The notes under the pieces are model-generated. The model saw only the letters and a list, made by a program, of their open reading frames with translations, ran no database searches and had not been told where the DNA came from. The translations under genes and the position numbers were made by a program. A stretch of 64,000 nt of DNA from Lachnospiraceae bacterium A2 (GTDB lineage Bacteria; Bacillota; Clostridia; Lachnospirales; Lachnospiraceae): contig KE159636.1 of assembly GCA_000403315.2 (NCBI GenBank), positions 773,358-837,357 of the forward strand, written 5' to 3'. Below, in pieces: positions 30,760 to 45,161 of this stretch (position 1 is its first letter; each line of letters begins with the position of its first letter).

Positions 30760-30786
30760 ATAACCGGGGCTGCTCCTTCATACATT
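30760..30786 (+). promoter_or_regulatory. Sigma-E-type promoter of spoIIID
   Basis: ATA (30760-30762, in GTCATAACC) is followed after 16 bp by CATACATT (30779-30786), matching the mother-cell sigma-E consensus ATA-N16/18-CATACAnT. Transcription would start near 30792; a GAGGGAA ribosome site at 30804-30810 precedes the TTG start of spoIIID. Confidence 0.7.
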
Positions 30787-30815: not shown

Positions 30816-30947
30816 TTGAAAGGGTACATAGAAGAACGGGCTATTAATATCGCTAATTATATAATTGAGGAAAATGCTACGGTAAGGCAGACAGCAAAAA
30901 AATTTGGGATTAGCAAGAGTACGGTACATACAGTAGTAACAAAATAG
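30816..30947 (+). pseudogene. spoIIID: spoIIID, 5' part (interrupted by the integrated element)
   Basis: SpoIIID is the sigma-E-dependent mother-cell transcription regulator of sporulation. Codons 1-38 match its N-terminal half, ending in the recognition helix (KKFGISKSTVH), then run into element sequence TVVTK and a stop, giving a 43-residue product without the C-terminal DNA-binding arm. TTG start with GAGGGAA upstream. The remainder of the gene is at 45015-45161. Not decayed: the coding half is clean up to the attachment core at 30925-30930. Probably an excisable interruption rather than a dead gene (inference). Confidence 0.88.
30925..30930 (+). other. attL core of the element in spoIIID
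   Basis: TACATA, shared with 45010-45015. Left of it is spoIIID codon 37; right of it the element begins. Recombining the two cores restores the reading frame Val-His-Lys-Asp. Confidence 0.8.
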
Positions 30948-31031
30948 AACGATTAATAAAAAGAGAAGTATGGACGATTTTATAGCAATTTTATAATAGG
31001 CAAGGATTGAAATAGTTCTGTGTAATTAATT

Positions 31032-32617
31032 ACTCAAACTTCCCACACCGATTGGTGTGCTGAACCTTGAAAAATCAATACTTTAGTCTATAAAAAAGGC
31101 ACAAACCTGCACTTGATGGTATAATTGAATTGCGAATAACAATCACACAGCAAGGAGATTTATGCCATGTCAAGTATACCATATAATGCTGAAAACGGGA
31201 ATGAGATTTCTAACTCTGTCACAAATTTTATGACCCAATTCCAAATTGGGAAACTTCTTTTCAAATGTAATGCCGGAAAAGCAAAAGGGATTCCGGTAAT
31301 CGAAGTGTTTCGATACCTGTTCTGTCTCATTTTCTCGGATAGAAGCATGTATATGCAGCGGAAAACAGGCATATTTGATGGTTCATTCTGCAAGAACACC
31401 GTTTATCGCTTCCTCAATAATGCGAAGATTAACTGGTTTCGGTTCACAACCCTGCTTTCAAGCCGGATCATTAACGATTTCATGAAGCCGCTTACGGATG
31501 AGAGCCGCAAAGATGTCTTCATTATTGATGACAGCCTGTTTGACCGTTCCCGTTCAAATAAAACGGAACTTCTGGCGAAAGTCTTCGACCACTGCTCTAT
31601 GAAGTACAAGAAAGGTTACCGTATGCTGACACTTGGATGGTCCGATGGCAACTCCTTTGTTCCGATCAACCATCGTCTTCTGTCGGCAGCCGACGATAAA
31701 AATCTGCTCTGCAAAGCCGCAAACTTCGATGGACGTTCTCTTGCCGGGAAAAGGCGGAAAGAATCCAGACGAAAGGCAACAGAAGTCTTGATTGACCTGA
31801 TCAAAGCAGCACAATCATCTGGCGTTTCTGCAAAATATGTGCTGTTCGACAGTTGGTTTTCATCACCGAAGACCATTAGCGCATTAAAGACAGACTGCAA
31901 ATTAGACACAATCGCAATGGTTAAGAAAAGCAGTAAAATCAAATATGGCTATCAGGATGGCAGATACAACATCAAAGAAATCTATAAACAGTGTAAAAAA
32001 CGCAGGGGCCGCTCCAAGTACCTGCTTTCTGTTGACGTAACCGTTGGTGATGAGGCAATTCCGGCAAAAATCGTCTGTGTCCGGAACAAAGGCAAGAGAA
32101 AAGACTGGCTTGCCATCATCAGCACGGACACAGCTATCTCAGCGGAAGAAATCATCCGTATCTATGGGAAACGCTGGGATATAGAGGTGTTTTTCAAAAC
32201 CTGCAAATCCTATCTGCATCTGGTAAAGGAGTGCCGGAGCCTGTCCTATGATGCTTTGACTGCTCATGTATCCATTGTCTTTGCACGATATATGATGCTT
32301 GCAGTTACACAGCGGTGCAATACCGATGACAAAACGATATGTGAACTGTTTTTCCGTCTCATGGATGAACTGGATGACATCACTTTCAATCAATCCATGA
32401 GGATTATCATGGACGCACTAATGGATGCCGTTATGGAATATTTCCACATCACAGAACAGCAGCTTGAGGAATTCACTGCCAGCTTTGTTCAGAGACTGCC
32501 GAAGTACATGCAAAAAGCATTGGAGTGCAGTTCAGCGGCTGCCTGAGCGCTATTTTGTGAGCTAAAGTATTGATTTTTCAGGGAGCAAATCCCATTTTTA
32601 ATGTGGGAAGTTTGAGT
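31032..32617 (+). mobile_element. IS4-family insertion sequence, copy 2
   Basis: Same 1586-bp length, terminal repeats and encoded protein as copy 1 at 18864-20449, also flanked by TAATT (31027-31031, 32618-32622). It sits 102 bp inside the left end of the spoIIID element, so it landed in the element, not in spoIIID itself. Confidence 0.92.
31167..32546 (+). CDS. IS4-family transposase (identical to the copy at 18999)
   Basis: 459-residue DDE transposase, same protein sequence as copy 1, including the catalytic FIIDDSLFDRS, LFDSWFSS and YGKRWDIEVFFKTCK motifs. Identity points to recent transposition or gene conversion. Confidence 0.95.
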   Translation: MSSIPYNAENGNEISNSVTNFMTQFQIGKLLFKCNAGKAKGIPVIEVFRYLFCLIFSDRSMYMQRKTGIFDGSFCKNTVYRFLNNAKINWFRFTTLLSSRIINDFMKPLTDESRKDVFIIDDSLFDRSRSNKTELLAKVFDHCSMKYKKGYRMLTLGWSDGNSFVPINHRLLSAADDKNLLCKAANFDGRSLAGKRRKESRRKATEVLIDLIKAAQSSGVSAKYVLFDSWFSSPKTISALKTDCKLDTIAMVKKSSKIKYGYQDGRYNIKEIYKQCKKRRGRSKYLLSVDVTVGDEAIPAKIVCVRNKGKRKDWLAIISTDTAISAEEIIRIYGKRWDIEVFFKTCKSYLHLVKECRSLSYDALTAHVSIVFARYMMLAVTQRCNTDDKTICELFFRLMDELDDITFNQSMRIIMDALMDAVMEYFHITEQQLEEFTASFVQRLPKYMQKALECSSAAA

Positions 32618-32624
32618 TAATTAT

Positions 32625-32657
32625 AAAAAGCAGATGTGAAGCGAGCATCTGCTTTTT
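32625..32657. terminator. Bidirectional terminator beside the IS
   Basis: A perfect 12-bp stem AAAAAGCAGATG/CATCTGCTTTTT with a nine-base loop, flanked by A- and T-runs. It lies just downstream of the Xre gene read on the minus strand and directly next to the IS right end. Confidence 0.85.
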
Positions 32658-32667
32658 ATATAGTATT

Positions 32668-32910
32668 TTATTCATCTTCAAAGATAGTTTCATTCATTTC
32701 AGGAAAATCTAATAACTCAGATACGGTCATGCCTAAGCCGATTGCCAGTTTATGGAGTGTTTTCAGTTTGGGATTCTTTGTTTTGCCGGACATAATATTT
32801 TCAACCGTAGATTGAGTAATCCCGGACAAAGTAGCCAACTTGTTTATAGTAATATTTGGTTCCTTACATAATCTGGTAAGTCTCAAGATAATCACATCTG
32901 AATAAGTCAT
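32668..32910 (-). CDS. Xre-family HTH regulator (paralogue 1)
   Basis: 80 residues, nearly all helix-turn-helix (NKLATLSGITQSTVENIM as the DNA-binding part). Start at 32910 is chosen for GGGAGAG upstream and because it aligns with the start of the neighbour at 33236. About 79 percent identical to that neighbour by hand alignment; the pair is a tandem duplication. Likely repressor of element genes through the TTAACGGTATAC-type operators. Confidence 0.88.
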   Translation of the reverse strand: MTYSDVIILRLTRLCKEPNITINKLATLSGITQSTVENIMSGKTKNPKLKTLHKLAIGLGMTVSELLDFPEMNETIFEDE

Positions 32911-32967
32911 AAAGACCTCTCCCTGCTTCAAGAATTAAATAGAGTATACGGGGAATTTTTGCTCAAA

Positions 32968-32987
32968 GTTAATGGTATACCGTTAAC
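32968..32987. promoter_or_regulatory. Palindromic operator between the two Xre genes
   Basis: GTTAATGGTATACCGTTAAC, a 20-bp near-perfect palindrome upstream of the first Xre gene. Related sites lie at 33255-33266, 33295-33311 and 33336-33352. Confidence 0.6.
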
Positions 32988-32993
32988 GACTCG

Positions 32994-33236
32994 TTATTCA
33001 TCATCAAACGCTATTTCATTCATCTCAGGAAAATCCAATAGCTGAGATACAGTCATATCTAAACCGATTGCCAGTTTATGGAGTGTTTTTAGTTTGGGAT
33101 TTCTTGTTTTTCCTTTCATCAAATTATCTACCGTAGATTGTGTAATTCCAGATAATGTGGCTAATTTGTTCACAGTGATATCCCGTTCGGCGCATAATGC
33201 CGTTAGTCTTTTGATAACAGCGTCAGAATATGTCAT
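32994..33236 (-). CDS. Xre-family HTH regulator (paralogue 2)
   Basis: 80 residues with the same HTH framework as paralogue 1 (NKLATLSGITQSTVDNLM) and identical core KLKTLHKLAIGL. AGGAGG lies before the ATG. Transcribed away from the gene at 33365 with operator-like repeats in the shared intergenic region, so it probably controls both directions. Confidence 0.88.
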   Translation of the reverse strand: MTYSDAVIKRLTALCAERDITVNKLATLSGITQSTVDNLMKGKTRNPKLKTLHKLAIGLDMTVSQLLDFPEMNEIAFDDE

Positions 33237-33254
33237 GAAAATCCTCCTAACTTT

Positions 33255-33352
33255 GTACGGTTAATGAAAGTATAGGATGTTTAAGGACACTATATTAACG
33301 GTGTGCGGTTGACTGCGTGGATAAAATGTGATAGATTAACGGTATACGGTTA
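33255..33352. promoter_or_regulatory. Operator cluster in the divergent intergenic region
   Basis: Three related sites: GTACGGTTAATG (33255-33266), TTAACGGTGTGCGGTTG (33295-33311) and TTAACGGTATACGGTTA (33336-33352). The last lies 13 bp before the next gene. They share the TTAACGGTATAC half of the palindrome at 32968-32987. Confidence 0.55.
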
Positions 33353-33364
33353 TTCAATAAAGAA

Positions 33365-34198
33365 ATGGGGAGTGGGAATAGAGTGTGGGAAAGAATAAAG
33401 AAAAACTGGGATGCCTTTTGGATTGGAGATGAACACGATGATTCTAAGAAGCATCTAAGCCAGTCAGATAAGCGTTCCCTTTTATATGGCTATTTTATAA
33501 TAGGAACTCTTACGGTTGCCTTCGTGATATTCCTTATCAAAATGAATGGCATCCGGATAAACCGCCGGAATGATGAAGCTATGGAAGAACTTCTAAACAT
33601 GGTTATATCTTACGTGGAATCTGCCACAGAGGATGAATATGATGAGATTGCCCAGACCATAAGGCACGATTTAGTATTTCACAAATATGAAAAGGATATA
33701 GAGAAATACATCCGATATATTCCGAACACATCTGAGAAATGTCGTGCCTGCAGGGGAATTTATCCGGCGCAAGCGGTTCTTGTCAGATTAAATACCGGAG
33801 AATCCTATTCACTGGACTTATTTGAACAGGGAATAGAGCCAGAGGAATATCAGGGGAACACGCTGTTGACATATGGCTATGATGAAATAAGCCAGACAAG
33901 CATCCACATTTCCAAAAGTCCGGGAGAAAACAAAGGTCTGGCAGAAATAGAACGAGGAAACGGGATTGTCAGCATCCATAGGATGAAAAGATTGTTTTGT
34001 GATGATTGTATCAGAGCTATGTTGGATACGGTTGAGCATCAGCTTATCGGAGAACTTGTCATATGCGATACAAAGAAGAATACATTTTATCCCCTGGAAG
34101 ATGAAAGCAAGGCGCAGATTGGAGATTATGCATTAGAAACAGAATATAAAGACGGAGATTACGAGATAGCAGTTAAGTCAGTCAATGAAACCGAGTGA
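33365..34198 (+). CDS. Membrane-anchored hypothetical protein with two CxxC pairs
   Basis: Not recognised. 277 residues. A cytoplasmic N-terminal stretch, one membrane segment (about 39-58, LLYGYFIIGTLTVAFVIFLI), then a soluble domain with CRAC (near 123) and CDDC (near 218), which could bind a metal or form disulfides. GGGGAGTGGG lies before a possible GTG start at 33383; the ATG at 33365 is used here. A TTAACGGTATACGGTTA operator sits just upstream, so it is probably repressed by the adjacent Xre proteins. Confidence 0.65.
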   Translation: MGSGNRVWERIKKNWDAFWIGDEHDDSKKHLSQSDKRSLLYGYFIIGTLTVAFVIFLIKMNGIRINRRNDEAMEELLNMVISYVESATEDEYDEIAQTIRHDLVFHKYEKDIEKYIRYIPNTSEKCRACRGIYPAQAVLVRLNTGESYSLDLFEQGIEPEEYQGNTLLTYGYDEISQTSIHISKSPGENKGLAEIERGNGIVSIHRMKRLFCDDCIRAMLDTVEHQLIGELVICDTKKNTFYPLEDESKAQIGDYALETEYKDGDYEIAVKSVNETE

Positions 34199-34234
34199 TC
34201 CAGGAATTGATAACAGGAAGGAGAACAAAGCAAT

Positions 34235-34639
34235 ATGGAGCCGAATTATATACAATTACCGCCAATGCCGTCCGATATGCCGCCGGAGCTCATAGAGGTT
34301 GTCTGGGGATTTGCCCGGATGGAAGAGCCGGAACGGAAAAAGTTTTTAGCTTTTATGCAGGAAGAAATGAAGGCTGGTACAGATAAAAGTGAAAAAGAAA
34401 AACTGCTAAGAATGATGGAGCGATCCGGCGGGGAAGCAAGCCCTTATGTCGAAGAGTTTCATTCCCTTATGCGGGAGTTAGTCGGAACGTTGGTGACACA
34501 GGCATGTGAAATGGCGGCGCTTGTTCTCCAATATTACTGCATTGATGAAAAATCCATAAAAGAAATATCGGAAATATTCCATGTGCCTGAGAACACGATA
34601 GAACTCATGGCACAATACTACGAAAGAAAAAAGAAATAA
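34235..34639 (+). CDS. Hypothetical helical protein of the element
   Basis: Not recognised. 134 residues; charged, mostly helical, no membrane segment. The C-terminal part IKEISEIFHVPENTIELMAQYY looks like a helix-turn-helix. Follows the membrane protein by 36 bases with AAGGAGAAC before the ATG, and is closed by a terminator. Confidence 0.6.
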   Translation: MEPNYIQLPPMPSDMPPELIEVVWGFARMEEPERKKFLAFMQEEMKAGTDKSEKEKLLRMMERSGGEASPYVEEFHSLMRELVGTLVTQACEMAALVLQYYCIDEKSIKEISEIFHVPENTIELMAQYYERKKK

Positions 34640-34661
34640 TGTCATCTTTTCCACATGAAAG

Positions 34662-34697
34662 CGGCGAATCCTTGATACAGAAAGGGTTCGCCGTTTT
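34662..34697 (+). terminator. Intrinsic terminator
   Basis: CGGCGAA (34662-34668) pairs with TTCGCCG (34687-34693), extended by a CCTT/AAGG inner stem, followed by five T residues. Confidence 0.85.
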
Positions 34698-35016
34698 TGC
34701 CATTTTCGTAGAATTATGAGTAACTGCAATGCGGTACTTGTAAGAGCAAGTATCGTCCAAGGTTCCAGATTCCGCTTCCGCGCCATCCTCCACTCCGGAC
34801 AGCTACTTGTTGGGGAGTGCCTTCCCCAAACCCTGCTTGTGAAAAAATCTACAGATTTTTGAATCCTTCACTGCATAAAATCCCCATCCGGTTACGAGAG
34901 CAAAATAAAAAGTGATTATAAATTTTTTATAAACTGTTTGTATTTTGGTACCGCCAGCCTGCTATTAGTGAAAGGAGAAATTTTAGGAAAGAAAATTTTT
35001 GAAAGGAGTGACAACG
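34698..35016 (+). other. Non-coding region with candidate oriT upstream of mobC
   Basis: No gene seen. Contains an inverted repeat TTGGGGA/TCCCCAA (34810-34816 and 34823-34829) followed by ACCCTGCTTG, then an AT-rich stretch before mobC. A hairpin of this kind next to mobC/relaxase genes is the usual place for the transfer origin; nic site not identifiable. Confidence 0.5.
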
Positions 35017-35421
35017 ATGGCTATGAAAAAAATGTACAACACACCCCACCGGGGATGCATTGTCAAGACAAGGCTGACCAAAGAAGAACGGCAGGACTTT
35101 GAGGAAAAATGCAGGACGCTTTCCATAAGCCAGTCCGAGTATCTTAGGCAGGCAATCTTTTCCGGCAAGGTATCCACGACCATCAGGGTAACGGCAAACA
35201 ATGAGGAAATGCTGACCGCAGTTTCAAATCTGGTGGCGCAGTACGGGAAGATTGGCAGCAACTTAAACCAGATTGCCAGACATCTAAATGAATACGGCTT
35301 CCCTTACCGGGAACTTGCCGCAGAACTGGAAGGATGCGCCGCTGACCTTGCCGCCTTGAAATTTGAAGTGCTGAAAGTCATCGGGGAAGCCTATGGCAAC
35401 GATAAAACATATCAGCTCTAA
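35017..35421 (+). CDS. mobC: MobC-like relaxosome accessory protein
   Basis: 134 residues; N-terminal ribbon-helix-helix-like part (RLTKEERQDFEEKCRTLSIS, SEYLRQAIF) and the MobC-type motif IGSNLNQIARHLNEYG. Binds oriT and assists the relaxase. ATG 35017 follows AAAGGAG. Its 3' end overlaps the relaxase gene by 29 bases, which indicates translational coupling. Confidence 0.85.
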   Translation: MAMKKMYNTPHRGCIVKTRLTKEERQDFEEKCRTLSISQSEYLRQAIFSGKVSTTIRVTANNEEMLTAVSNLVAQYGKIGSNLNQIARHLNEYGFPYRELAAELEGCAADLAALKFEVLKVIGEAYGNDKTYQL

Positions 35422-37009
35422 GAATGCCGATTACGGAGCAGCCGAACAATACCTGACCTTTGAGCATGACGAATTTAACATGAAGCCAGTAAAGGATGAA
35501 GCCGGACGGATGGTTCCCCGTAAAGGTTACAAGATTGAGACTGTGAATTGCGGGGAGGAAGATTTTGCAATCTCCTGCCTGCAGGCGAATATGCAGTATA
35601 AAAAGAACAGCCAGCGGCAGGACATAAAGAGCCACCACTACATTATCAGTTTTGAGCCCAGGGATGCCGACGACAACGGTCTGACCGTAGAGAAAGCACA
35701 GAAATTGGGGATGGAGTATTGTAAGAAACATTTTCCCGGACATCAGGCCCTTGTCTGCACCCACCCGGACGGACATAACCATTCCGGCAACATCCATGTA
35801 CACATCGTCATCAATTCCCTGCGCATCCATGCAGTGGAGCGGAAAGCCTACATGGACAGGCCATGCGACACACAGGAAGGCGCAAAGCATCGCTGTACCG
35901 CTTCTGCTATGCGGTATTTCCGGAGTGAAGTCATGGAGATGTGCCAGCGTGAGGGATTACATCAGATTGACCTGCTGAACGGCGGCAGGGAGAAGGTTAC
36001 CGAGCGTGAGTATTGGGCAAAGAAACGTGGACAGGCAGAGAAAGACATCCTGAATAAAAAAATGATTGCAGACGGGGTTACGCCAAGACAGCCTAAGTTC
36101 GAGACGGAGAAAGAATTGCTGCGTCAGTCAATACGTTCAGCGCTTTCGGCGGCAGCATCCTTTGAGGATTTTTCCGCAAGGCTCATGCAGGATTATGGGA
36201 TTGAAGTCAGGGAAAGCCGGGGGAGATTAAGCTACCTTACCCCGGACCGGACTAAGCCGGTCACTGCCCGGAAGCTGGGAACGGATTACGATAAGGCAGC
36301 GGTACTTTCTGTCCTTGCCGAAAATGCTTCCAGAGCCGCCCAAAAGGAGCAGGCCGGACAAAACCACAGGGAGAGCGTAATAGAACGCTTAAAACACCGG
36401 AAAACGTCTGGAACCGCACCGAATCAGGACAGTATACAGCGCATGGTTGATATCCCGGCAAAAATGGGCGAAGGCAAGGGCAAAGGATATGAATGGTGGG
36501 CGAAAGGCTTCAATCTCCAGCAGATGTCGCAGACGATGATTTATCTTGAAGAATGCGGCTTCTCCTGCCCGGAAGATGTAGACCATGCCATACAGGAATC
36601 GTCTGACAGGCAGAGGGCGCTTTCAAAGGAAATAAAATCTATGGAAAAGAAGATTGCCGACAATAAAGAGCTGATACGTCAGGCATCCGTCTACCGCAAG
36701 ACCAAGCCGTCATATGACGGGCTGAAAAAGGTGAGAAAGCGGGAACGCTACGAGGAAGAGAACCGGGCAGACCTTGCTTTATTTGCGGCGGCAGGACGGT
36801 ATTTTCAGGAGCGGGGAATGACGAAGTTCCCTGACCTGGCAAAAATCAAGGCAGAGAACCAATCCCTGGTTTCCCGAAAAAATGCCATTTATAGCGAATA
36901 CCTGGAGCGGAAAACAAAAACAGCGGAACTTCGCCGGGTGAAAACCAACCTGGACGCAATGCTGAGACAGGAATATAAGCCGCAGAGACGGCAAGAACAA
37001 GAGCGATAG
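35393..37009 (+). CDS. MOBP-type relaxase
   Basis: Nicks oriT and carries the strand during mobilization. 538 residues; N-terminal relaxase domain with HHYIISF and the metal-binding three-histidine motif HPDGHNHSGNIHVHIVINS (about residues 123-141). The C-terminal half is coiled and basic. The catalytic tyrosine is probably in the first 20-45 residues (ADYGAAEQYLTF). Downstream of mobC; no coupling protein (VirD4) is in the element. Confidence 0.9.
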   Translation: MATIKHISSKNADYGAAEQYLTFEHDEFNMKPVKDEAGRMVPRKGYKIETVNCGEEDFAISCLQANMQYKKNSQRQDIKSHHYIISFEPRDADDNGLTVEKAQKLGMEYCKKHFPGHQALVCTHPDGHNHSGNIHVHIVINSLRIHAVERKAYMDRPCDTQEGAKHRCTASAMRYFRSEVMEMCQREGLHQIDLLNGGREKVTEREYWAKKRGQAEKDILNKKMIADGVTPRQPKFETEKELLRQSIRSALSAAASFEDFSARLMQDYGIEVRESRGRLSYLTPDRTKPVTARKLGTDYDKAAVLSVLAENASRAAQKEQAGQNHRESVIERLKHRKTSGTAPNQDSIQRMVDIPAKMGEGKGKGYEWWAKGFNLQQMSQTMIYLEECGFSCPEDVDHAIQESSDRQRALSKEIKSMEKKIADNKELIRQASVYRKTKPSYDGLKKVRKRERYEEENRADLALFAAAGRYFQERGMTKFPDLAKIKAENQSLVSRKNAIYSEYLERKTKTAELRRVKTNLDAMLRQEYKPQRRQEQER

Positions 37010-37031
37010 AGAATGAAAAAAAGGAGGAACT

Positions 37032-37553
37032 ATGCAATTTACCAAGAGTGAACTTGAGATGATTTACAAGTATGCATGCACGACAAAAGAAGATACGGTT
37101 AAGGCTATGAAAGAAGCATTATCCGCTATCGGGGATGAACTGACCTACATAATCATAAGGAACGCCGCAGAAAAGCTGGGGAAGCTGCCGGAGCCGGAAT
37201 GCAGCCGTTTTATAGCAGACAATAAAGCGCATCACATAGAAAAGAGTGAACGTTCCGTCCTGCGGCGGCTTGCCGAAGCCAAGGAGCGGGTAAAACAGCC
37301 CGTCCTGCAGGGGCATGATTTGTCGGGGATCGAACGCTTCCAGAAAGATACCCGGCACATGGTCGTCTTTGATGTGCTGAACAATGACAGCCCTGTCGGG
37401 TTTAAAGGGGAAAGATACCGTCTCTTCCTCTCTGACGCAGGATATAACATTGCAAGAACCAGTGAAAAGCGAGGGGAGATGAAAATCAGGAACCATGCCG
37501 CAGTAGCCGCCGGAAAGCTGTACCCCGATAAAAAGGCTGAACATGACAGATAA
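37032..37553 (+). CDS. Hypothetical protein of the mobilization/replication module
   Basis: Not recognised. 173 residues; first half helical (SELEMIYKYACTTKEDTVKAM), second half with a compact FKGERYRLFLSDAGYNIA segment. AAAGGAGG precedes the ATG. It overlaps the next gene by 11 bases and is therefore part of the replication operon. Confidence 0.6.
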   Translation: MQFTKSELEMIYKYACTTKEDTVKAMKEALSAIGDELTYIIIRNAAEKLGKLPEPECSRFIADNKAHHIEKSERSVLRRLAEAKERVKQPVLQGHDLSGIERFQKDTRHMVVFDVLNNDSPVGFKGERYRLFLSDAGYNIARTSEKRGEMKIRNHAAVAAGKLYPDKKAEHDR

Positions 37554-37998
37554 TTGTTCCGGGAGGAAGTTCAGAAAGCAGGGAGAACCACAGGAAAATA
37601 AAAATAGAGTGGAAACAGAGGGGCAGGAAACCGGATATGTCTGGGCAGATACACATTTACCGCCTTATCTCCCCTATCCCCGGTTCCTGCTGAAAATGGA
37701 TATCACACAGACAGCAAAGCTTTTGTATGCACTGCTCTTAGACCGCACTACTCTATCGCAGAAGAACGGATGGCAGGATGAATCCGGAAGGACATATATT
37801 ATATTCCCGGTAACGGCGATAGCGGATGCATTGGATAAAAGCCCGTCAACCATAAAAGAAGCGTTGAACGAATTAGACCGGGCAGGGCTTCTGGAACGGA
37901 GGCGGCAGGGATTCTCCACAGCAAACCGCCTGTATGTGAAGCTGCCGCCAGTAGTCCAGATTTCCGGACTACTGACAGCCAGAAAACCGGACTTATGA
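37543..37998 (+). CDS. repA: RepA N-terminal-domain replication initiator
   Basis: 151 residues with the RepA_N winged-helix region (PRFLLKMDITQTAKLLYALLLDR, IIFPVTAIADALDKSPSTIKEALNELDRAGLLERRRQG) that initiates replication in many Firmicutes plasmids. The usual C-terminal part is missing; the next gene supplies a separate C-terminal-type domain, so the initiator may be split in two. Overlaps neighbours on both sides by 11 and 4 bases. Confidence 0.8.
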   Translation: MTDNCSGRKFRKQGEPQENKNRVETEGQETGYVWADTHLPPYLPYPRFLLKMDITQTAKLLYALLLDRTTLSQKNGWQDESGRTYIIFPVTAIADALDKSPSTIKEALNELDRAGLLERRRQGFSTANRLYVKLPPVVQISGLLTARKPDL

Positions 37999-38318
37999 CG
38001 GCCGGAAAACTGGCCTCTAACAACTATAATATAAACAAAACAATAGAGAACCAAACAAAGGAAGTGAATGGGGGATGCACCGTCTGCGGCAAATACAATA
38101 ATATTTTTCTCTCCGAAGAAGAATTATCGGAACTGGAGAGGGAATACCCCGGCAGGCTGCAAAGGTTTATAGAGGAAATGAGCCGTTACCTTGCCGCAAC
38201 CGGGAAGAGTTACCACAACTATGCCGCCGCCATACGGATATGGGCGGACAATGACAGGAAGGGAAACGCCGCACAGGGCATCCCGGATTACGATTATAAG
38301 GAGGGCGAGAGCCTATGA
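37995..38318 (+). CDS. Replication-module protein resembling an initiator C-terminal domain
   Basis: 107 residues. A four-base ATGA overlap with repA and another with the dnaC-like gene. The segment LSEEELSELEREYPGRLQRFIEEMSRYLAATGKSYHNYAAAIRIW resembles the helical C-terminal domain of RepA/DnaD-type initiators. CTVC at about residue 28 suggests a small zinc site (one pair only). Probably works with the RepA_N protein. Confidence 0.65.
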   Translation: MTAGKLASNNYNINKTIENQTKEVNGGCTVCGKYNNIFLSEEELSELEREYPGRLQRFIEEMSRYLAATGKSYHNYAAAIRIWADNDRKGNAAQGIPDYDYKEGESL

Positions 38319-39151
38319 TTTTAGACGATGCCAAGGGAACGATGGTTCTAATGGATACAGAGCCGGAAAACGACGATTACACAGGGGAGGACGGGCTTTT
38401 ATACTGCGGAGCCTGCCATACACCGAAAGAAGCCTATTTCCCGGAAGGAAAGATGCTTTTCGGGCGTGACCGCCACCCTTCCGAATGTGAATGCCAGAGA
38501 AAGGAACGGGAAAAGCGGGAATCAGAAGAACGGCAGAGGGAGCATGAAGCTACGGTGGAACGGCTGAAGGACAGCGGATTCACAGACGGCAGCATGAAGA
38601 GATGGACATTTGACAATGACAACGGAAGAAATCCACAGATGAGATTTGCACACATCTATGTGGAGCATTGGGAGGAAATGCGGGCAGAGAGCCGGGGGTA
38701 TCTCCTTTGGGGGAATGTGGGCACAGGAAAGACTTACCTTGCCGGATGTATCGCAAATGTGTTGATGGAGCGGGAAATTCCGGTACGGATGACGAACTTT
38801 GCCGCCATTTTAAACGACCTGACAGGCACATTAAATGGGAGGAATGCTTACATAGAGCGGTTATGCAGCTTCCCACTCCTGATACTGGATGATTTTGGGA
38901 TGGAGAGGGGAACGGAATACGGCTTAGAACAGGTCTATAACGTGATAGACAGCCGTTACCGGAGCCGCAGGCCATTGATTGTCACTACGAACCTGACATT
39001 ATCAGAACTGCAGAATCCGGCAGACAGAGCGCATCAGAGAATTTATGACAGAGTGCTTGCCATGTGTACGCCAGTCTGCTGTTCCGGGATAAATTTCCGT
39101 AAGGAGCAGGCACAAAAGAACATGGAATATCTGAAAGAAATGTTGAAATAG
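38315..39151 (+). CDS. DnaC/IstB-like helicase loader ATPase
   Basis: 278 residues. N-terminal four-cysteine zinc finger (CGACHTPKE...CECQ), then AAA+ core: Walker A GNVGTGKTYLAG, Walker B LLILDDFGMERGTE, sensor region RPLIVTTNLTLSEL. Loads replicative helicase at the element's own origin; its presence implies the element replicates after excision or in transfer. ATGA overlap with the preceding gene. Confidence 0.88.
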   Translation: MILDDAKGTMVLMDTEPENDDYTGEDGLLYCGACHTPKEAYFPEGKMLFGRDRHPSECECQRKEREKRESEERQREHEATVERLKDSGFTDGSMKRWTFDNDNGRNPQMRFAHIYVEHWEEMRAESRGYLLWGNVGTGKTYLAGCIANVLMEREIPVRMTNFAAILNDLTGTLNGRNAYIERLCSFPLLILDDFGMERGTEYGLEQVYNVIDSRYRSRRPLIVTTNLTLSELQNPADRAHQRIYDRVLAMCTPVCCSGINFRKEQAQKNMEYLKEMLK

Positions 39152-39288
39152 TAGAAAGGTAGATAGGTAATATCAATTTACGCCAAATTATATGTTGAAA
39201 AATGAATGAAAAGTATTGGACTATTTTAGGTAAAATTTTCATAGTTATGGAGAAAGAGACAAGCTAGTAAGCAGGAGGTGGTTTCGCT

Positions 39289-39468
39289 ATCGCTAAAAAA
39301 ACAAAGCTTCATTTTCGTTTTCATAATCCAAATTCGGCGGTGGAAACCGCTAATTACATAGCAAAAATATTTATTGAGGTCAATCAGGTTAAAATTGATC
39401 AGGTGTTACAAGAAACCGCAGAAAGAATGGAAATACAGAGCGAAGAGAATCGGAGTCTTTCATGTTGA
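39289..39468 (+). CDS. Small conserved ORF with non-standard ATC start
   Basis: Encodes 59 residues starting IAKKTKLHFRFHNPNSAV, rich in Lys and His, a small protein type I associate with Clostridia elements carrying serine recombinases. AGGAGGT at 39273-39279 sits nine bases before an ATC codon where homologues (from memory) have ATG; no ATG, GTG or TTG in frame has comparable placement. Either the start codon is mutated or ATC is used inefficiently. Confidence 0.5.
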   Translation: MAKKTKLHFRFHNPNSAVETANYIAKIFIEVNQVKIDQVLQETAERMEIQSEENRSLSC

Positions 39469-39524
39469 AAGGCTCCATTAATTTTGTATGGAGTGTTGTA
39501 TAATGATTTGATCTGGTATAAAAT

Positions 39525-39578
39525 AGTCATAGATTAGTTCTAGAAAGTCATAGATTAGTCATAGAATTTAGTCATAGA
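39525..39578 (+). repeat. Four AGTCATAGA direct repeats upstream of the AlbA_2 gene
   Basis: Exact AGTCATAGA at 39525, 39546, 39557 and 39570, ending 22 bases before the ATG at 39601. Likely a regulator-binding array, perhaps for the AlbA_2 protein itself. Confidence 0.6.
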
Positions 39579-39600
39579 ATAGTAAAAGGCGGTGAATACT

Positions 39601-41268
39601 ATGATTTATGCAGACAATCAGCTAAAAGAGAAAATCTTAAACTTAGTGGTTACTTTTGAAAACGAAGTAATTGAATTTAAAGAAGCACGGAGCAATTATT
39701 CTTTCAATGATATTGGAAAATATTTTTCTGCTTTGAGTAATGAAGCTAATTTGCGAGGATTGCAAGAAGCATGGTTGGTCTTTGGAATATCTGATGAGAA
39801 AGAGATTGTTGGAACGGAATTTCGGAAACAAGGAGGATTGCATAACTTAAAGAAGGAAATAGTGAATGGAACAAATGAACGACTGACATTCATGGAAATC
39901 TATGAACTAACTATGAATAAATGTCGTATTATTGTATTTCAGATCCCTCCAGCAATACGGGGAATACCAACGACATGGCAAGGAGCGGCGTATGCAAGAG
40001 AACATGAATCTGTATCGCCTTTGCCTATGAATAAGGTTGATTTAATCAGAAGTCAGATAGGAGCGGATTGGTCAAAGGAGATTGTAAAAGAAGCATCTAT
40101 AGAAGATTTGGATGAAGAAGCGATTAAACGAGCACGTGAACTTTTTTCAAAACGTCAAAAGGATCGTAAGAAAGCGCAGGAGATTTTAAAAAAGTTATCA
40201 GACATTGAAGTGTTAAATAAAGCGGGAATAACAATTAAAGGAGAAATTACCAGGACAGCATTGCTTCTTTTGGGGAAAAGTGAATCCAGTTATTTTTTTG
40301 ACGGTTTTATTCCAAGATTAACATGGACTCTGTACAATGCAGACAATACAGTGAAAACATATGAGCATTTTGACATGCCTCTACTTTTGGCAGTAGATGA
40401 AGTATATTCTCGAATTAGAAATGTAAAGTATCGCTACATTGCCGGGCAGCAAACCTTATTTCCGGATGAAGTTGAACAGTATGAACCAGAATTAATAAAG
40501 GAGATTATAAACAATTGCATCGCTCATCAAGATTACCGTTTACGTGGAAAAATCAATATTGAAGAGTTTGAGGATAAACTTGTTTTTATAAATGAAGGAG
40601 GATTTATCCCGGAAACTATTGAACAAGCGTTGGAGCCAGGATATAAACCGCCTTATTATCGAAATGTTTTTTTGTGCAATGCAATGGTAAACTTGTATAT
40701 GATTGATACTAATTCTATGGGAATACCCATGATGTATCAAATTCAAAGAGATAAGTGTTTTCCGTTACCGACGTATGATTTAGAAACACTCAACAGGGTT
40801 AAGGTGACTGTATTTGGAAAAATCATAGATAAAAATTACACACAGCTTTTATATTCAAATGGCGATTTAGACATACAAACCGTATTTTTGTTAGATAAGG
40901 TCCAAAAGAAAGAGACAATATCTAAAGAAAATTTTAGGATTTTAAAAAGGCAAGGATTGATAGAGGGAAGATATCCAAATTTATTTGTGTCTTTTAAAGT
41001 AGCAGATATTGTTGGACAAAAAGCGGACTATATACGGAACAAAGGATTAGATGATGATATTTGCAAACAGTTAATAGTAAAAGCCTTAGAATCTATGGGT
41101 GAAGCAAGTAAGCATGAATTGATGGATGTGTTAGACAAGGCATTACCGGAGATTTTAAGTGAAAATCAAAAATCAAAAAAAGTATCAAATTTACTGCAGA
41201 TTCTAAAGAGAGATGGAAGTATAGAAGTTAAAGGGAAAAATCGGCATGCAAAATGGTCAATAAAGTAG
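39601..41268 (+). CDS. AlbA_2/Schlafen-type DNA-binding protein with ATPase-like C-terminus
   Basis: About 555 residues. N-terminal AlbA_2 domain (about 10-135: VIEFKEARSNYSFNDIGKYFSALSNEAN, AWLVFGISDE), then a RecG-like/HATPase_c_4 region (about 290-450: LIKEIINNCIAHQDYRLRGKI, VFINEGGFIP) and C-terminal winged helix. Such proteins are transcription regulators or parts of defence loci. ATG 39601 is favoured by AAGGCGGTG; a GTG three codons earlier is possible. Base composition is notably AT-rich compared with the mobilization genes, so it is likely separately acquired cargo. Confidence 0.75.
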   Translation: MIYADNQLKEKILNLVVTFENEVIEFKEARSNYSFNDIGKYFSALSNEANLRGLQEAWLVFGISDEKEIVGTEFRKQGGLHNLKKEIVNGTNERLTFMEIYELTMNKCRIIVFQIPPAIRGIPTTWQGAAYAREHESVSPLPMNKVDLIRSQIGADWSKEIVKEASIEDLDEEAIKRARELFSKRQKDRKKAQEILKKLSDIEVLNKAGITIKGEITRTALLLLGKSESSYFFDGFIPRLTWTLYNADNTVKTYEHFDMPLLLAVDEVYSRIRNVKYRYIAGQQTLFPDEVEQYEPELIKEIINNCIAHQDYRLRGKINIEEFEDKLVFINEGGFIPETIEQALEPGYKPPYYRNVFLCNAMVNLYMIDTNSMGIPMMYQIQRDKCFPLPTYDLETLNRVKVTVFGKIIDKNYTQLLYSNGDLDIQTVFLLDKVQKKETISKENFRILKRQGLIEGRYPNLFVSFKVADIVGQKADYIRNKGLDDDICKQLIVKALESMGEASKHELMDVLDKALPEILSENQKSKKVSNLLQILKRDGSIEVKGKNRHAKWSIK

Positions 41269-41537
41269 TGTATGTTTACAGGGGGATAGAGTATGAAAGA
41301 AGCGAATATCTTCCTTTGGTTGTGGCGGTTATATTTTACTTGTGGAAACTCCGTTAAGGCTGAATTTAACGGGTTTTCAGCTCAGTCTTGACCGGGTTTC
41401 CAAGTAAAATTGGGTTAACCATGCAAAAGAAATAGGAGGTAAAGGCTTATACTCCGAATCCATTGAATTTACTGGAGTTGAGCCGATTTTGAATATATAA
41501 AATTGACGCTACCGTTTACAGAACAAAGGAGAAAAAT
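41269..41537 (+). other. Non-coding stretch with gene fossils and a hairpin
   Basis: Holds a 32-codon ORF (41293-41391, MKEANIFLWLW) after GGGGGAT, a hairpin pairing ACTTG...GAAAC near 41338 with GTTTCCAAGT near 41402, and a C-terminal-looking fragment (HAKEIGGKGLYSESIEFTG) in frame up to a stop near 41502. These look like remnants between two cargo genes. Confidence 0.4.
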
Positions 41538-43370
41538 ATGAATAAATATGATATATTGGTAAATATAGTGGATCAAATAATGGGGGAGGCACCATCGGGG
41601 TACAAAAGATATTATCCTGAACCTCAAAATATTGAAAAAGTAGATCAGGCTAGATCACGAGTTTTTATACATTTATTTTTAAAGGTTAAATATGGTATTA
41701 ATGATTTCCTTGAAAGAGAAGGCTATATTACAGATGAAGTGAATGATGGCGGGATTGATGCCTACTATATTGACAGAGATAGTAAGACAATAGTGTTTAT
41801 ACAATCAAAATATAGACGCAATCAAAACAATTTCGAAAATAAAAATATTGAGTTGGATGAAATATTGAAGATGGATACAGATCGGATTGTTGATGGTGAA
41901 ACAGAAAATGAAGATGGTATATCTTACAATAGTAAAATACAGAATATGATTCAAAAAATAAGCTCTATTGATGATATAGGCAGATATAGATATCAAGTAG
42001 TTATCTTAGCTAATTTGAAGAAAGAGAAATATAAAGATTCACAAATAAAAAAACTTACAGGAGGATTTTCAGCGAAAATATTTGATTATGAAAAATGTTA
42101 CAATGAGCTAGTTTTTCCAGTAGTTACAGGTTGTTATTATAATGCTGATGAAATAAAAATAAGGCTATCTTTGGTAAATAAAGAGAATAATGATGGAAGG
42201 ATTAGCTACACAGTTGAAACGAAATATGGAGCATGTAAGATAATGGTGGCTTTTGTTCCTGTACTTGAAATTGCTAAAGTAGTAGCAAAATATAAAAACT
42301 CAATTTTAAAATATAATCCAAGATGCTTTTTGAGCTTAAAGAATAATACAATCAATCCCAAAATTAGAAGTACTATAAGAAATAAGAAAACGAATGAAAT
42401 CGCTTTGTACAATAATGGAATAACAATTTTGTCTGATGATACAGACTTTAATTCAAAGGTGGCATTAAAAGATACAGCGCAATTGATAATAAAGAATCCG
42501 CAAATCGTAAATGGCGGTCAGACTGCGTACACAGTTGCATCAATATATGAAGAAGATTTAGACTATATGGAACATTTTGAAGGGAAAGAAATTCTCGTAA
42601 AAATCATTACTTTTTTAGGTAAATATAAAGAACGCGATAAATTATCATTGATCGAAGAATTATCAAAAGCAACAAATGAACAAACGCCTGTAAAAGAAGT
42701 TGATCGGAGAGCAAATGATAGAATACAGATAGAATATCAAAAAAATATTTATAAAGATTTTGGATATTTTTATAATAGAAAAATGGGCGAATATTATGAC
42801 GGGCTAAATCACAATTTTATTACACGTGATAAAATTGTTGACCGGACTATATTTATGAGAGTTGGATCTAGTATACGGGGCGAAGTAGCTAAAGCGCGAA
42901 GAAATAGTGATGAAGTTTTGTTCAGACCAGAGCATTTTGAACAAATTTTTGTGGATACAGATATATACAAAAAATATATGTATGGATATTTTTGTCATAT
43001 GTACTTGACTGAATTAGAGAAAAATTTTTCAAAGACAAGAAATAATAAATATGGTATTAATACATATGGTAATGCGTTGCGATATGGGAAATACGCAGTT
43101 ACACATGTTGTTTCACAATATTGGTTGGAATCATTAGCTCTGTTTGAATATCATGAAAACGTTAGAATGTATACGGATATAATCTTGAGCCAATGGATTA
43201 ATTTTGAGAAAAATGTTACAAAAAAAGTACATAATAGGGATTATTTTTATCAAGTAACAGGAGAAAACGGACAAAATGAATACTATTATAATTATGATGG
43301 GTATTATAAAGGAAGAACTATTAATAACGACTTAAAGGAATTTTCATTTGATATAAATAAAATAGTTTAA
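41538..43370 (+). CDS. AIPR-family protein with PD-(D/E)xK nuclease domain
   Basis: 610 residues, very AT-rich. An N-terminal Mrr-like nuclease motif is visible: Asp74 in GGIDAYYID and Gln89-Ser-Lys91 in FIQSKYRR. The C-terminal part has the AIPR family motif PQIVNGGQTAYTVASIYEE and ATNEQTPVKEVDRRANDRIQ. AIPR proteins are linked to abortive infection and phage resistance; a nuclease-based suicide function is inferred. AAAGGAG precedes the ATG. Lies between the AlbA_2 gene and the recombinase. Confidence 0.82.
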   Translation: MNKYDILVNIVDQIMGEAPSGYKRYYPEPQNIEKVDQARSRVFIHLFLKVKYGINDFLEREGYITDEVNDGGIDAYYIDRDSKTIVFIQSKYRRNQNNFENKNIELDEILKMDTDRIVDGETENEDGISYNSKIQNMIQKISSIDDIGRYRYQVVILANLKKEKYKDSQIKKLTGGFSAKIFDYEKCYNELVFPVVTGCYYNADEIKIRLSLVNKENNDGRISYTVETKYGACKIMVAFVPVLEIAKVVAKYKNSILKYNPRCFLSLKNNTINPKIRSTIRNKKTNEIALYNNGITILSDDTDFNSKVALKDTAQLIIKNPQIVNGGQTAYTVASIYEEDLDYMEHFEGKEILVKIITFLGKYKERDKLSLIEELSKATNEQTPVKEVDRRANDRIQIEYQKNIYKDFGYFYNRKMGEYYDGLNHNFITRDKIVDRTIFMRVGSSIRGEVAKARRNSDEVLFRPEHFEQIFVDTDIYKKYMYGYFCHMYLTELEKNFSKTRNNKYGINTYGNALRYGKYAVTHVVSQYWLESLALFEYHENVRMYTDIILSQWINFEKNVTKKVHNRDYFYQVTGENGQNEYYYNYDGYYKGRTINNDLKEFSFDINKIV

Positions 43371-43417
43371 TCTTTTAAGATAAATAAAATCTTTCATACA
43401 GGAAGGATATAAAGAGC

Positions 43418-45016
43418 ATGAACATAGCTGCATACTGCCGTGTATCTACGGACAAAGAAGATCAACTAAACAGCTTGGAAGCCCAAAAGGCCTTTTTTGC
43501 CGAATACACTACCCGCACAGGCGACACCCTCATTAGATTATATGCAGACGAAGGCATTTCTGGAACTAAAATCAAAAATCGCAAGGAATTTCTTCGCATG
43601 ATGTCCGATGCTGAACATGGTCTATTCGACATGGTAGTGGTAAAAGACATCTCCCGTTTTGCCCGCAATACCGTAGATCTTCTTCAAAATGTCCGCAAAT
43701 TAAAGTCATTAGGCATAGAAACCCAATTCCTCACCGCCAACATGACAAGCATGGGTAACAGCGAATTTGTCTTGACTATTTTTGGCGCATTGGCACAGGA
43801 GGAAAGCGCCAATACATCCAAGCGTGTGAAGTTTGGCAAAAAAATGAACGCAGAAAAAGGGCGTGTTCCCAACATTGTTTACGGCTATAATAAAACCATA
43901 GGCGATTATTTCAATCTGGAAATCAATCAAGAAGAGGCAGCTGTCATTCAACAGATTTATCAGTGGTACACAAAAGAAGGCTATGGAGCCGCCAAGATTT
44001 CCAACAAGTTAAATGAACGTGGACTAAAAACAAAGCGCAACTGCCAGTGGAGCCAAAACGCTATCTGCCGTATCCTTACAAACGAACTATACACAGGAAA
44101 AATCATCAACGGCAAACAGGAAGTAGCAGACTTTCTTACAGGCAGGCGTACCGATAAAGATGAGACAGACTGGATGGTTGTAGAACGTCCGGACTTGCGC
44201 ATCATTGAACCGGAAACATATGAAAAAGCACAGCAGATACTACAGTCCAGAAATAAAGCATTTAACATCAAGCATGAACGCCAGAGCAACAAATATATCT
44301 TCTCAACCCTCATCAAATGCAAGGAATGCGGTTGGTCGTTCAGGCGTACCGTCCGTACTTATAAGAATACTTATGTGCGCTGGGTATGTTCCGGGCATAA
44401 CGGGAGAGGCGCCGATAGCTGCCCCAATGCCATCACTGTTGACGAGGAAGAGCTGATTCAGGCATTGCAGGAATATTTTGCGGAAATGCTGAAACAGAAA
44501 AAGAATGTAATCCAGAATGTTGTCCGAGAGTTCCAACGTATCTATAAGGCAAAGGATGAAAATATAGAGTACGAAAAAGAATTAAACCAACAGCTTGCCA
44601 AATTACAGAAAACCCGCCAGAAATTTATGGATATGTATACAGACGACCTGATCTCCCGCGAAGAGTTGAATACAAAGATCGGCGGTATGCGAAAGGAAAT
44701 CGAGCGACTTGAAAACGAACTGAAAATGGTGTCCTACCATCTGACAAAAGGAGAACAGCTAGAGCATATCCTTGGCAACACTTTCAAAGCGGTAGAAGAT
44801 ATCACGGATGTACACCAGATGACCAACGAACAACTCAAACAGATTATCCAGAAAATCGAAGTAGACAAAGAAGGCAATGTGGATATTTTCTTACGCTTAT
44901 TTGGAGATCTGGGACTGGATGAAGCCGTATTGATTGAGAACACATCAAATACGGCGGGGAATGTTCTTGATACAGTAGAAAGCGATATCATTCCAAATAA
45001 TAACAACCATACATAA
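43418..45016 (+). CDS. Large serine recombinase of the spoIIID element
   Basis: 532 residues. Resolvase domain 1-150 with nucleophile Ser10 (YCRVSTDKEDQ) and DISRFARN; recombinase domain about 165-270; zinc-ribbon cysteines in CKECGWSF...CSGHNGRGADSCPN; and a coiled-coil after 360. Integrates and excises the element at TACATA in spoIIID. GGAAGG precedes the ATG. Its final codons CAT-ACA-TAA overlap the right core, so the stop is completed by host spoIIID bases; in the circular form the frame continues 18 more codons. Confidence 0.93.
   Translation: MNIAAYCRVSTDKEDQLNSLEAQKAFFAEYTTRTGDTLIRLYADEGISGTKIKNRKEFLRMMSDAEHGLFDMVVVKDISRFARNTVDLLQNVRKLKSLGIETQFLTANMTSMGNSEFVLTIFGALAQEESANTSKRVKFGKKMNAEKGRVPNIVYGYNKTIGDYFNLEINQEEAAVIQQIYQWYTKEGYGAAKISNKLNERGLKTKRNCQWSQNAICRILTNELYTGKIINGKQEVADFLTGRRTDKDETDWMVVERPDLRIIEPETYEKAQQILQSRNKAFNIKHERQSNKYIFSTLIKCKECGWSFRRTVRTYKNTYVRWVCSGHNGRGADSCPNAITVDEEELIQALQEYFAEMLKQKKNVIQNVVREFQRIYKAKDENIEYEKELNQQLAKLQKTRQKFMDMYTDDLISREELNTKIGGMRKEIERLENELKMVSYHLTKGEQLEHILGNTFKAVEDITDVHQMTNEQLKQIIQKIEVDKEGNVDIFLRLFGDLGLDEAVLIENTSNTAGNVLDTVESDIIPNNNNHT
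45010..45015 (+). other. attR core of the element in spoIIID
   Basis: TACATA identical to the left core at 30925-30930. The following bases AAGACGTAACAGAACGC continue the spoIIID frame (Lys-Asp-Val-Thr-Glu-Arg). Confidence 0.8.
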
Positions 45017-45161
45017 AGACGTAACAGAACGCCTTACCCAAATTAACCCAGCCCTTGCGACGCAGGCAAGGAAAGTGCTGGACGTAAACAAATCGGAGCG
45101 GCATATCCGGGGCGGCTTGGCAACGCGGGAAAAATATTTGCATCAGAAGGGCGTTGTCTGA
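45015..45161 (+). pseudogene. spoIIID: spoIIID, 3' part
   Basis: Codons 39-86 plus stop of spoIIID without a start: KDVTERLTQINPALATQ, then DVNKSERHIRGGLATREKY, which is the conserved C-terminal DNA-contacting part of SpoIIID. Frame is clean. Joined to 30816-30929 it gives an 86-residue protein of normal SpoIIID length. Not expressed as is, since it lacks a start codon and ribosome site. Confidence 0.88.

Follow-up and report, generated by a model that had tools for sequence, protein, structure and literature searches.

A mobilizable-type element that splits spoIIID in Lachnospiraceae bacterium A2 belongs to a recurrent family and is predicted to excise during sporulation

The gene for the sporulation regulator SpoIIID, whose place in the mother-cell cascade is after sigma-E and before sigma-K, is interrupted in Lachnospiraceae bacterium A2 by an element of 14 kb that carries a large serine recombinase. 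The comparisons presented here indicate that this mobilizable-type element occupies a bacterial attachment site (attB) at spoIIID codon 38 and probably excises in the sporulating mother cell by means of a directionality factor that it encodes and that is predicted to be made from a sigma-E-type promoter. The locus lies in a stretch of 64,000 nucleotides (contig KE159636.1 of assembly GCA_000403315.2, positions 773,358 to 837,357), hereafter called the window. Programmed excision is the likely fate of the element. By its gene content and relatives it is of mobile type and part of a broad family, and not a skin element domesticated in a single host.

Results

The spoIIID gene of A2 is split and exactly restorable

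The break falls after codon 38 and the two halves, both on the same strand, each end at an identical TACATA core. In silico removal of 14,085 bp gives an uninterrupted SpoIIID of 86 residues with no change, which matches Pfam PF12116 over residues 2-82 (E 1.4e-42). The original prediction, made from the sequence of the window alone, had proposed these halves, cores and exact restoration, with a large serine recombinase beside the right core, and all of this is borne out by the coordinates (Table 1) and the Pfam match. It had also called for a look at whether an intact copy exists in A2 or, at an empty site, in relatives: the only SpoIIID matches in the A2 genome (E 1e-3; 10 contigs, 93.45% complete) are the two halves, and an intact spoIIID, 94% identical, is present in the sole same-genus genome drawn (G176). 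The locus combines several of the features by which a skin-type element is recognised, namely an in-frame split of a sporulation gene with precise restoration, an adjoining large serine recombinase and no other intact copy. The sporulation genes spo0A, spoIVA and sigK are present in the A2 genome, the sigma-K match being above its curated cut-off. Chance or an assembly artefact was rejected as an explanation, given the same-codon junction in independent assemblies that include the single-contig genomes G232 and G345.

Relatives of the element occupy the same codon in many Clostridia

A recombinase scan of genome contigs yielded 171 relatives, the best 80 of which were kept as loci, a choice that favours close relatives. 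In 76 of the 79 loci with a readable right flank the insertion is in spoIIID at the same codon, and in 75 of the 80 the 3' half of SpoIIID follows the recombinase directly, from residue 39 (tblastn). The match starts at residue 40 in L047, L084 and L086, where residue 39 differs; in L066 the 3' half was recognised by translation before the contig end, and in L100 the contig ends at the core. Three recombinase loci (L050, L054, L061) lie outside spoIIID, and in L054, from a Christensenella sp., the site is a near-core one, ACAGATGG. Titled hosts include Blautia, Schaedlerella, Extibacter, Pseudoflavonifractor, Flavonifractor and Agathobaculum, and the labels Bacteroidales (L067) and Muribaculum (L072) are probably binning errors.

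Among 397 genomes of A2's own family, 240 (A2 included) have a SpoIIID match, and the gene is split in 32 of these. The split calls rest on re-examination of the 33 genomes other than A2 whose best match was weaker than E 1e-29, the rest being taken as intact. Partial matches at the break were found in 31 of the 33, with both halves in 23 (one showing merely 20 residues of the second half) and one half in 8, several of them at contig ends; in the other two, G044 and G297, the sole SpoIIID copy is divergent and full-length. Twenty stretches were fetched, and 15 have, at most 2 kb from the 3' half, a recombinase 43-87% identical (only the recombinase end in L160), while 3 show the 5' half alone with an arm of the attP type, attP being the attachment site of the free element. 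The remaining two, L158 and L159, fall outside the family pattern. In L158 (G171:C2) the 3' half has a different junction and is preceded by three serine recombinases that belong to a distant class (22-27% identity), possibly an independent element at this gene, and L159 has the 3' half joined to a transposase-like reading. By these comparisons the A2 element belongs to a mobile family for which codon 38 of spoIIID serves as attB in many Clostridia, a family that is widespread and apparently undescribed.

A small conserved protein is the candidate directionality factor

The recombinase and one small protein are the only genes common to three elements of just 3.8-4.2 kb (L071, L065, L093). The small protein, with the core KLNYRFHNPNTAEATADYILKIFIEANxxKVExAIQ, has homologues in 69 of the 80 recombinase loci (one a fragment) in addition to the window, and it is likely to be a recombination directionality factor (RDF). 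In the family genomes it was found in 18 of the 32 with a split spoIIID vs 2 of the 365 others (G255 and G371; Fisher p 1.3e-20), much as the recombinase itself at E 1e-150 (16/32 vs 2/365). In the 12 kb fetched around a relative of the recombinase that lies outside spoIIID (G390, 52% identical) there is no homologue. Distances between RDF candidates correlate with those between recombinases (Mantel r 0.57, n=67, a value reached by 0 of 2000 permutations), and the correlation is 0.71 among the 29 loci with more than 1.5 kb between the two genes. The candidate is a protein gene, since third codon positions differ more (0.56) than first and second positions (0.25) across 68 sequences. A protein search gave 468 relatives, and the few names shown among the 120 listed read 'hypothetical'; the structure model consists of two helices (pLDDT 84, pTM 0.47).

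Script-assigned starts in the 68 sequences were GTG in 28, ATG in 20, ATC in 12, TTG in 4 and ATA in 2, with 2 unassigned. The non-canonical ATC start recurs in the window (39289-39291), L034, L035, L040, L042, L111, L068 and others, and by eye the ATC and ATA starts are placed where relatives have ATG or GTG. A terminator-like hairpin overlaps the end of the window gene; positions 39100-43500 hold 2 such hairpins vs 1.5 expected from shuffles.

The candidate gene follows a predicted promoter of the mother-cell type

A CATA box stands at the expected distance in 56 of 58 regions upstream of spoIIID, and in most of the 56 an ATA precedes it by 16 nt (A 0.91, T 1.00, A 0.95), which is the sigma-E layout. 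The same spacing separates the boxes upstream of the RDF candidate, where TA-N16-CATA occurs in 64 of 68 regions (shuffle mean 1.3) and, after clustering at 80%, in 28 of 32 (shuffle mean 0.6), vs 2 of 77 regions upstream of the recombinase. With the CATA box as anchor, the boxes are 93-100% conserved and the spacer 40% in 53 unique sequences. In the 32 clustered regions TATT-N14-CATA was counted 21 times and other tested spacings 0-1 times; the looser TA..CATA gave up to 9 at other spacings. The layout was also found at 17 of the 21 places in the family genomes that hold an RDF candidate, a set that partly overlaps the named one. In the window, TATT-N14-CATA lies upstream of the candidate at 39222-39243. 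The promoter is predicted to be read by sigma-E (or sigma-K), and is called mother-cell type because the boxes of the two sigma factors are similar.

Downstream of the -10 box many of these regions carry ATGGACAAAG. Its reading as a start codon was rejected by eye, as it follows no ribosome-binding site and its frame relative to the RDF candidate gene varies. As a site resembling the SpoIIID box it occurs in 37 of 65 regions vs 2.1 in shuffles, but the window's ATGGAGAAAG departs from the consensus.

Attachment sites and free forms

Element ends are alike across loci (consensus by eye), the right end reading ...CCGTTCYAAATARTAACAACCATACAT and the left end ...ACATAYGGTAGTAAYAAAATAGAACGG, and the arms form a dyad, CCGTTCTA / TAGAACGG. 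The right arm is GTAACA-GAACG in spoIIID and GTAACA-AAATA-GAACG in attP, which is 5 bases longer; a longer attP arm is a known rule of serine integrases. A joined-attP pattern matched three near-identical contigs of the IMG/VR database, each with an adjoining recombinase 72% identical, and a similar joined attP is present in a fourth viral contig, L166. Judged by the joined site, these contigs are unintegrated forms and support the predicted attP. Across the IMG/VR contigs L163-L169 the recombinase family occurs with a joined attP and the RDF candidate, which in L167 has the family's promoter layout.

The phage record MT838016 was rejected as an excised circle, being another integrated copy with the SpoIIID 3' half. 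G255, a possible excised circle, has a recombinase contig and an intact spoIIID, but the two ends of that contig show no overlap and the recombinase is truncated at one of them. L197 (G396:C59, 187-17714) shows two apparent tandem elements, in which the 5' half of spoIIID precedes an element whose recombinase is broken; an attP-like junction follows, with another RDF candidate.

Integration would alter the recombinase end

The stop codon of the window recombinase, TAA at 45014-45016, consists of one core base and two bases of spoIIID Lys39, and the same stop, from the core T and the AA of Lys39, is found in 62 of 75 integrated loci. Most of the other 13 have a core ACAC or an altered codon 39, and earlier stops occur in L070, L081 and L106. 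In a free form the reading frame is predicted to run through attP: 36 of 40 left ends (some duplicates) continue it, in 32 cases by 13 residues or more, and 4 stop at once. The tail has the consensus Y[GR][SC]NKIER, often with W-x-[IV] near its end, and is encoded directly in viral contigs, the recombinase of L165 being open to 5956 and L166 reading YSSNNLERFIWLIS. Integration would thus strip the recombinase of a tail of often 14-18 residues. Beyond the arm, conservation of the tail at the protein level is modest by codon position (0.59 vs 0.48), and a structure model of the recombinase with its tail is of low confidence (mean pLDDT 63.5, tail below 50).

Just upstream of the recombinase, 59 of 77 loci carry GTAACAGAACG with no more than 2 mismatches (0.95 in shuffles), preceded at most of them by a sigma-A-like promoter (by eye). 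It equals the right half-site of attB, and self-control is therefore suggested, with GTAACAGAACG as a candidate autoregulatory operator of the serine integrase.

The module appears to move between hosts

Amino-acid distances between recombinases are uncorrelated with those between SpoIIID 3' halves (r -0.05, n=63), as are those of the RDF candidate (r 0.05), and recombinases are near-identical in the diverged hosts of L060 and L064 (0.97 vs 0.56). The module looks mobile on the strength of this poor co-divergence, the relaxase of the window element and the viral contigs with a joined attP. Vertical inheritance as the main mode is not supported by the distance comparisons, despite a weak correlation of third-position identities between recombinase and spoIIID 3' half (r 0.27; 3570 pairs, duplicates included). 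That correlation, the existence of very small elements and a few pairs that look co-inherited, such as L084/L086 (third-position identity 0.92 for the recombinase and 0.93 for spoIIID), are what an ancient capture, kept by its hosts as a timing device for SpoIIID, would have in its favour. Such a domesticated skin is nevertheless highly improbable in view of the uncorrelated amino-acid distances, the L060/L064 pair, the relaxase and the relatives in viral contigs.

Element anatomy and cargo

The gene set (Table 1) is, from its domain content, that of a mobilizable element, and part of its cargo may be directed against phages. It has its own relaxase and MobC/NikA-like protein, and a recombinase with att sites recognisable by sequence, as an integrative and mobilizable element (IME) should. 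Among the 14 window open reading frames scanned there was no domain of a conjugation apparatus and, against Pfam, no phage structural gene, so it does not qualify as a prophage. Cargo in the family is often defence- or toxin-antitoxin-like (window 39592-43370; L043, L092, L093, L112), the types seen being AIPR/AbiU, Schlafen, AAA_21 with RloB, an AAA-ATPase with PD-(D/E)XK, and a nucleotidyltransferase.

Table 1. Features of the split spoIIID locus and its element, in window coordinates
Feature	Position	Strand	Remarks
spoIIID promoter, sigma-E type	30760..30786	+	ATA (30760-30762), 16 nt, CATACATT (30779-30786)
spoIIID codons 1-38 (5' half)	30816..30929	+	TTG start
Core TACATA at attL	30925..30930		sequence
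Right arm of attP at element left end	30930..30953		GTAGTAACA-AAATA-GAACG; would encode recombinase tail in free circle
IS4-family transposase	31167..32546	+	NCBIfam NF049925, E 3.7e-181
Small Cro/C1-type helix-turn-helix (HTH) protein	32668..32931	-	
Small Cro/C1-type HTH protein	32994..33236	-	
Protein with weak sigma-70 region 4-like stretch	34235..34639	+	below cut-off
MobC/NikA-like mobilization protein	34999..35421	+	
MobA/VirD2-type relaxase	35393..37009	+	PF03432, E 4.1e-14
DUF5720 / TTRAP-like protein	37032..37553	+	
RepA_N-type replication protein	37543..37998	+	
IstB/DnaC-like ATPase	38315..39151	+	
Predicted mother-cell (sigma-E/K-type) promoter of RDF candidate	39221..39247	+	CTATT, N14, CATAGTTA
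RDF candidate, 59 aa	39289..39468	+	ATC start, script-assigned
Terminator-like hairpin	39452..39476	+	overlaps end of RDF candidate gene
Schlafen/AlbA_2 + RecG-C-like protein	39592..41268	+	cargo
AIPR / AbiU-like protein	41538..43370	+	possible anti-phage cargo; PF10592 E 2.1e-30; PADLOC AbiU E 3.1e-25
Large serine recombinase, 532 aa	43418..45016	+	stop completed by spoIIID Lys39
Core TACATA at attR	45010..45015		sequence
spoIIID codons 39-86 and stop (3' half)	45015..45161	+	

Discussion

The proposed course of events begins in growing cells, in which the recombinase would be present and the element would stay integrated. In the mother cell sigma-E would then drive synthesis of the RDF candidate, which would turn the serine recombinase from integration to excision, and the pair would join the spoIIID halves. 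SpoIIID would be made after this rearrangement, in the mother cell only, the spore chromosome presumably keeping the element. The RDF candidate could not, at first, require SpoIIID. As the recombinase-RDF module seems to pass from host to host while its cargo changes, spoIIID is best regarded as a safe harbour for integration: a cell destined to die is the only one that needs the gene, and excision there would be costless to the element.

Several observations weigh against this course of events. On the side of the promoters, TATT-N14-CATA in the window taken alone is at chance level (2 found, 3.5 expected), which makes the promoter case purely comparative; the -10 box of the RDF candidates reads CATAG(T/A).. 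and lacks the full CATACAnT of sigma-E; and the window recombinase has neither the GTAACAGAACG operator nor, by eye, the sigma-A-like promoter of most relatives. On the side of the small protein, the candidate was undetected in 11 of the 80 loci (several cut close to the recombinase) and in 14 of the 32 split genomes (several fragmentary or with recombinases 43-57% identical). The 3.5-kb element L146, with a recombinase 47% identical, has no homologue of it, and searches in Pfam, NCBIfam and PHROGs gave no family at a meaningful score, nor PDB a significant match. Nor was a homologue found in L145.

These gaps, the want of a sequence relative of known function and a predicted fold of no more than two helices are what one would expect if the small protein had another function, for example as a repressor or mobilization helper, and excision were left to the recombinase alone or to an unrecognised gene. 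Significant similarity is said to be lacking among RDFs (PMC5025042), so sequence cannot decide the identity of the small protein. A different function is nonetheless unlikely: apart from the recombinase, no other gene is common to the elements of 3.8-4.2 kb (L071, L065, L093), and the two genes co-vary even when several kb lie between them.

Three further points bear on whether excision is programmed at all. The split genomes G024, G345 and G183 also have a divergent full-length SpoIIID; in G024 and G345 (L143, L144) this copy, a possible substitute, is directly upstream of the split gene, and in G183 it lies elsewhere. The ratio of changes at first plus second to third positions, matched between groups, is 0.265 in split genes (n=53), slightly above the 0.211 of intact ones (n=30), and the intact state of the halves could stem partly from recent insertion; the unmatched ratio for the 3' half, 0.37 split and 0.21 intact, is confounded by taxon range. 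The exact joined-attP pattern was found in 0 of the 397 family genomes, a result that neither supports nor refutes excision, as the strict pattern misses variants such as L166 and L197. A plain selfish insertion, which inactivates spoIIID and leaves carriers sporulation-deficient or rarely reverting with no programme, would account for the mobile look of the element, for insertions that look recent and for the want of an excised form in those assemblies. It is quite improbable all the same: the RDF candidate and its mother-cell-type promoter are kept across most of the family while cargo turns over, 85 3' halves (some from duplicate loci) and 17 5' halves contain no stop codon, and the A2 genome keeps its other sporulation genes. 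Programmed excision by an RDF remains the preferred explanation.

The original prediction likened the locus to skin, and the likeness holds for the serine-recombinase insertion, the exact restoration and the candidate RDF behind a predicted mother-cell-type promoter; it fails for the notion of a single-host skin, since the family shows signs of horizontal movement. In Clostridioides difficile, skin lies in sigK, its recombinase CD1231 is expressed under sigma-A, and its RDF, CD1234, depends on sigma-E and SpoIIID (PMC5025042). Both systems place a serine-recombinase insertion in a gene for mother-cell transcription, and in both the recombinase has a vegetative-type promoter (here by eye, in most relatives) and the RDF a sigma-E-type one, which is here a prediction for a candidate. 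The likeness is one of division of labour, the RDF candidate being set beside CD1234 by description and not by sequence. Unlike skin, the present element targets spoIIID, one cascade step earlier, is of mobilizable type and apparently moves horizontally, and the C. difficile RDF needs the SpoIIID that would here be unavailable before excision.

The 28.6-kb gin element in gerE of Bacillus cereus ATCC 10987, with three recombinases (PMC5595907), is likewise a non-phage element that splits a very small mother-cell regulator gene and has a serine recombinase and an accessory factor (here a candidate), but it lies in a different gene, and the module described here, a single recombinase with its RDF candidate, is found in many genera. 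The sporulation genes spsM and yabG are freed at sporulation time from SP-beta (PMC4191935) and yin (PMC10747680) respectively, and the yin report suggests that its RDF candidate has a mother-cell (SigK) promoter (PMC10747680). As in A2, where excision is predicted, the DNA that interrupts the sporulation gene is mobile or of phage origin; these two are, however, prophages or prophage-like, and their targets are spore envelope or protease genes rather than a regulator. Serine-recombinase IMEs of gut Bacillota such as IME_Rho_tet, a type of roughly 11 kb, share the relaxase, MobC and serine recombinase, but often target MAFF2-related open reading frames (116 of 256), and the text of that report does not contain the word sporulation (PMC12904643). 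The main text of a serine-recombinase survey (PMC10083194) does not contain the word spoIIID, and searches of an open-access library, which leaves out most subscription papers and preprints, turned up no title or abstract start on an element in this gene, in agreement with the original prediction, which knew of none.

A wider reading, for and against which the chances are evenly balanced, is that mobilizable elements and phages share one recombinase-RDF module, which has spread across Clostridia via spoIIID with its excision wired to the mother-cell programme, so that in a sizeable minority of species the synthesis of SpoIIID waits for a DNA rearrangement. The circuit would be closed by the attB-like half-sites in the recombinase promoter, which would serve self-control, by SpoIIID-box-like sites through which the restored regulator would shut off many RDF promoters and by the attP-encoded tail that is lost on integration.

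The family offers for testing a recombinase and RDF candidate with defined attB and attP. Because SpoIIID acts between sigma-E and sigma-K, its dependence on a rearrangement would be a checkpoint one step before the skin of sigK. If excision is programmed, about one in eight of the sampled SpoIIID-positive genomes of the family (32/240) would be scored as spoIIID-broken yet be capable of sporulation, genome-based calls of spore formers would be affected, and developmental excision would be a transferable property of a mobile module.

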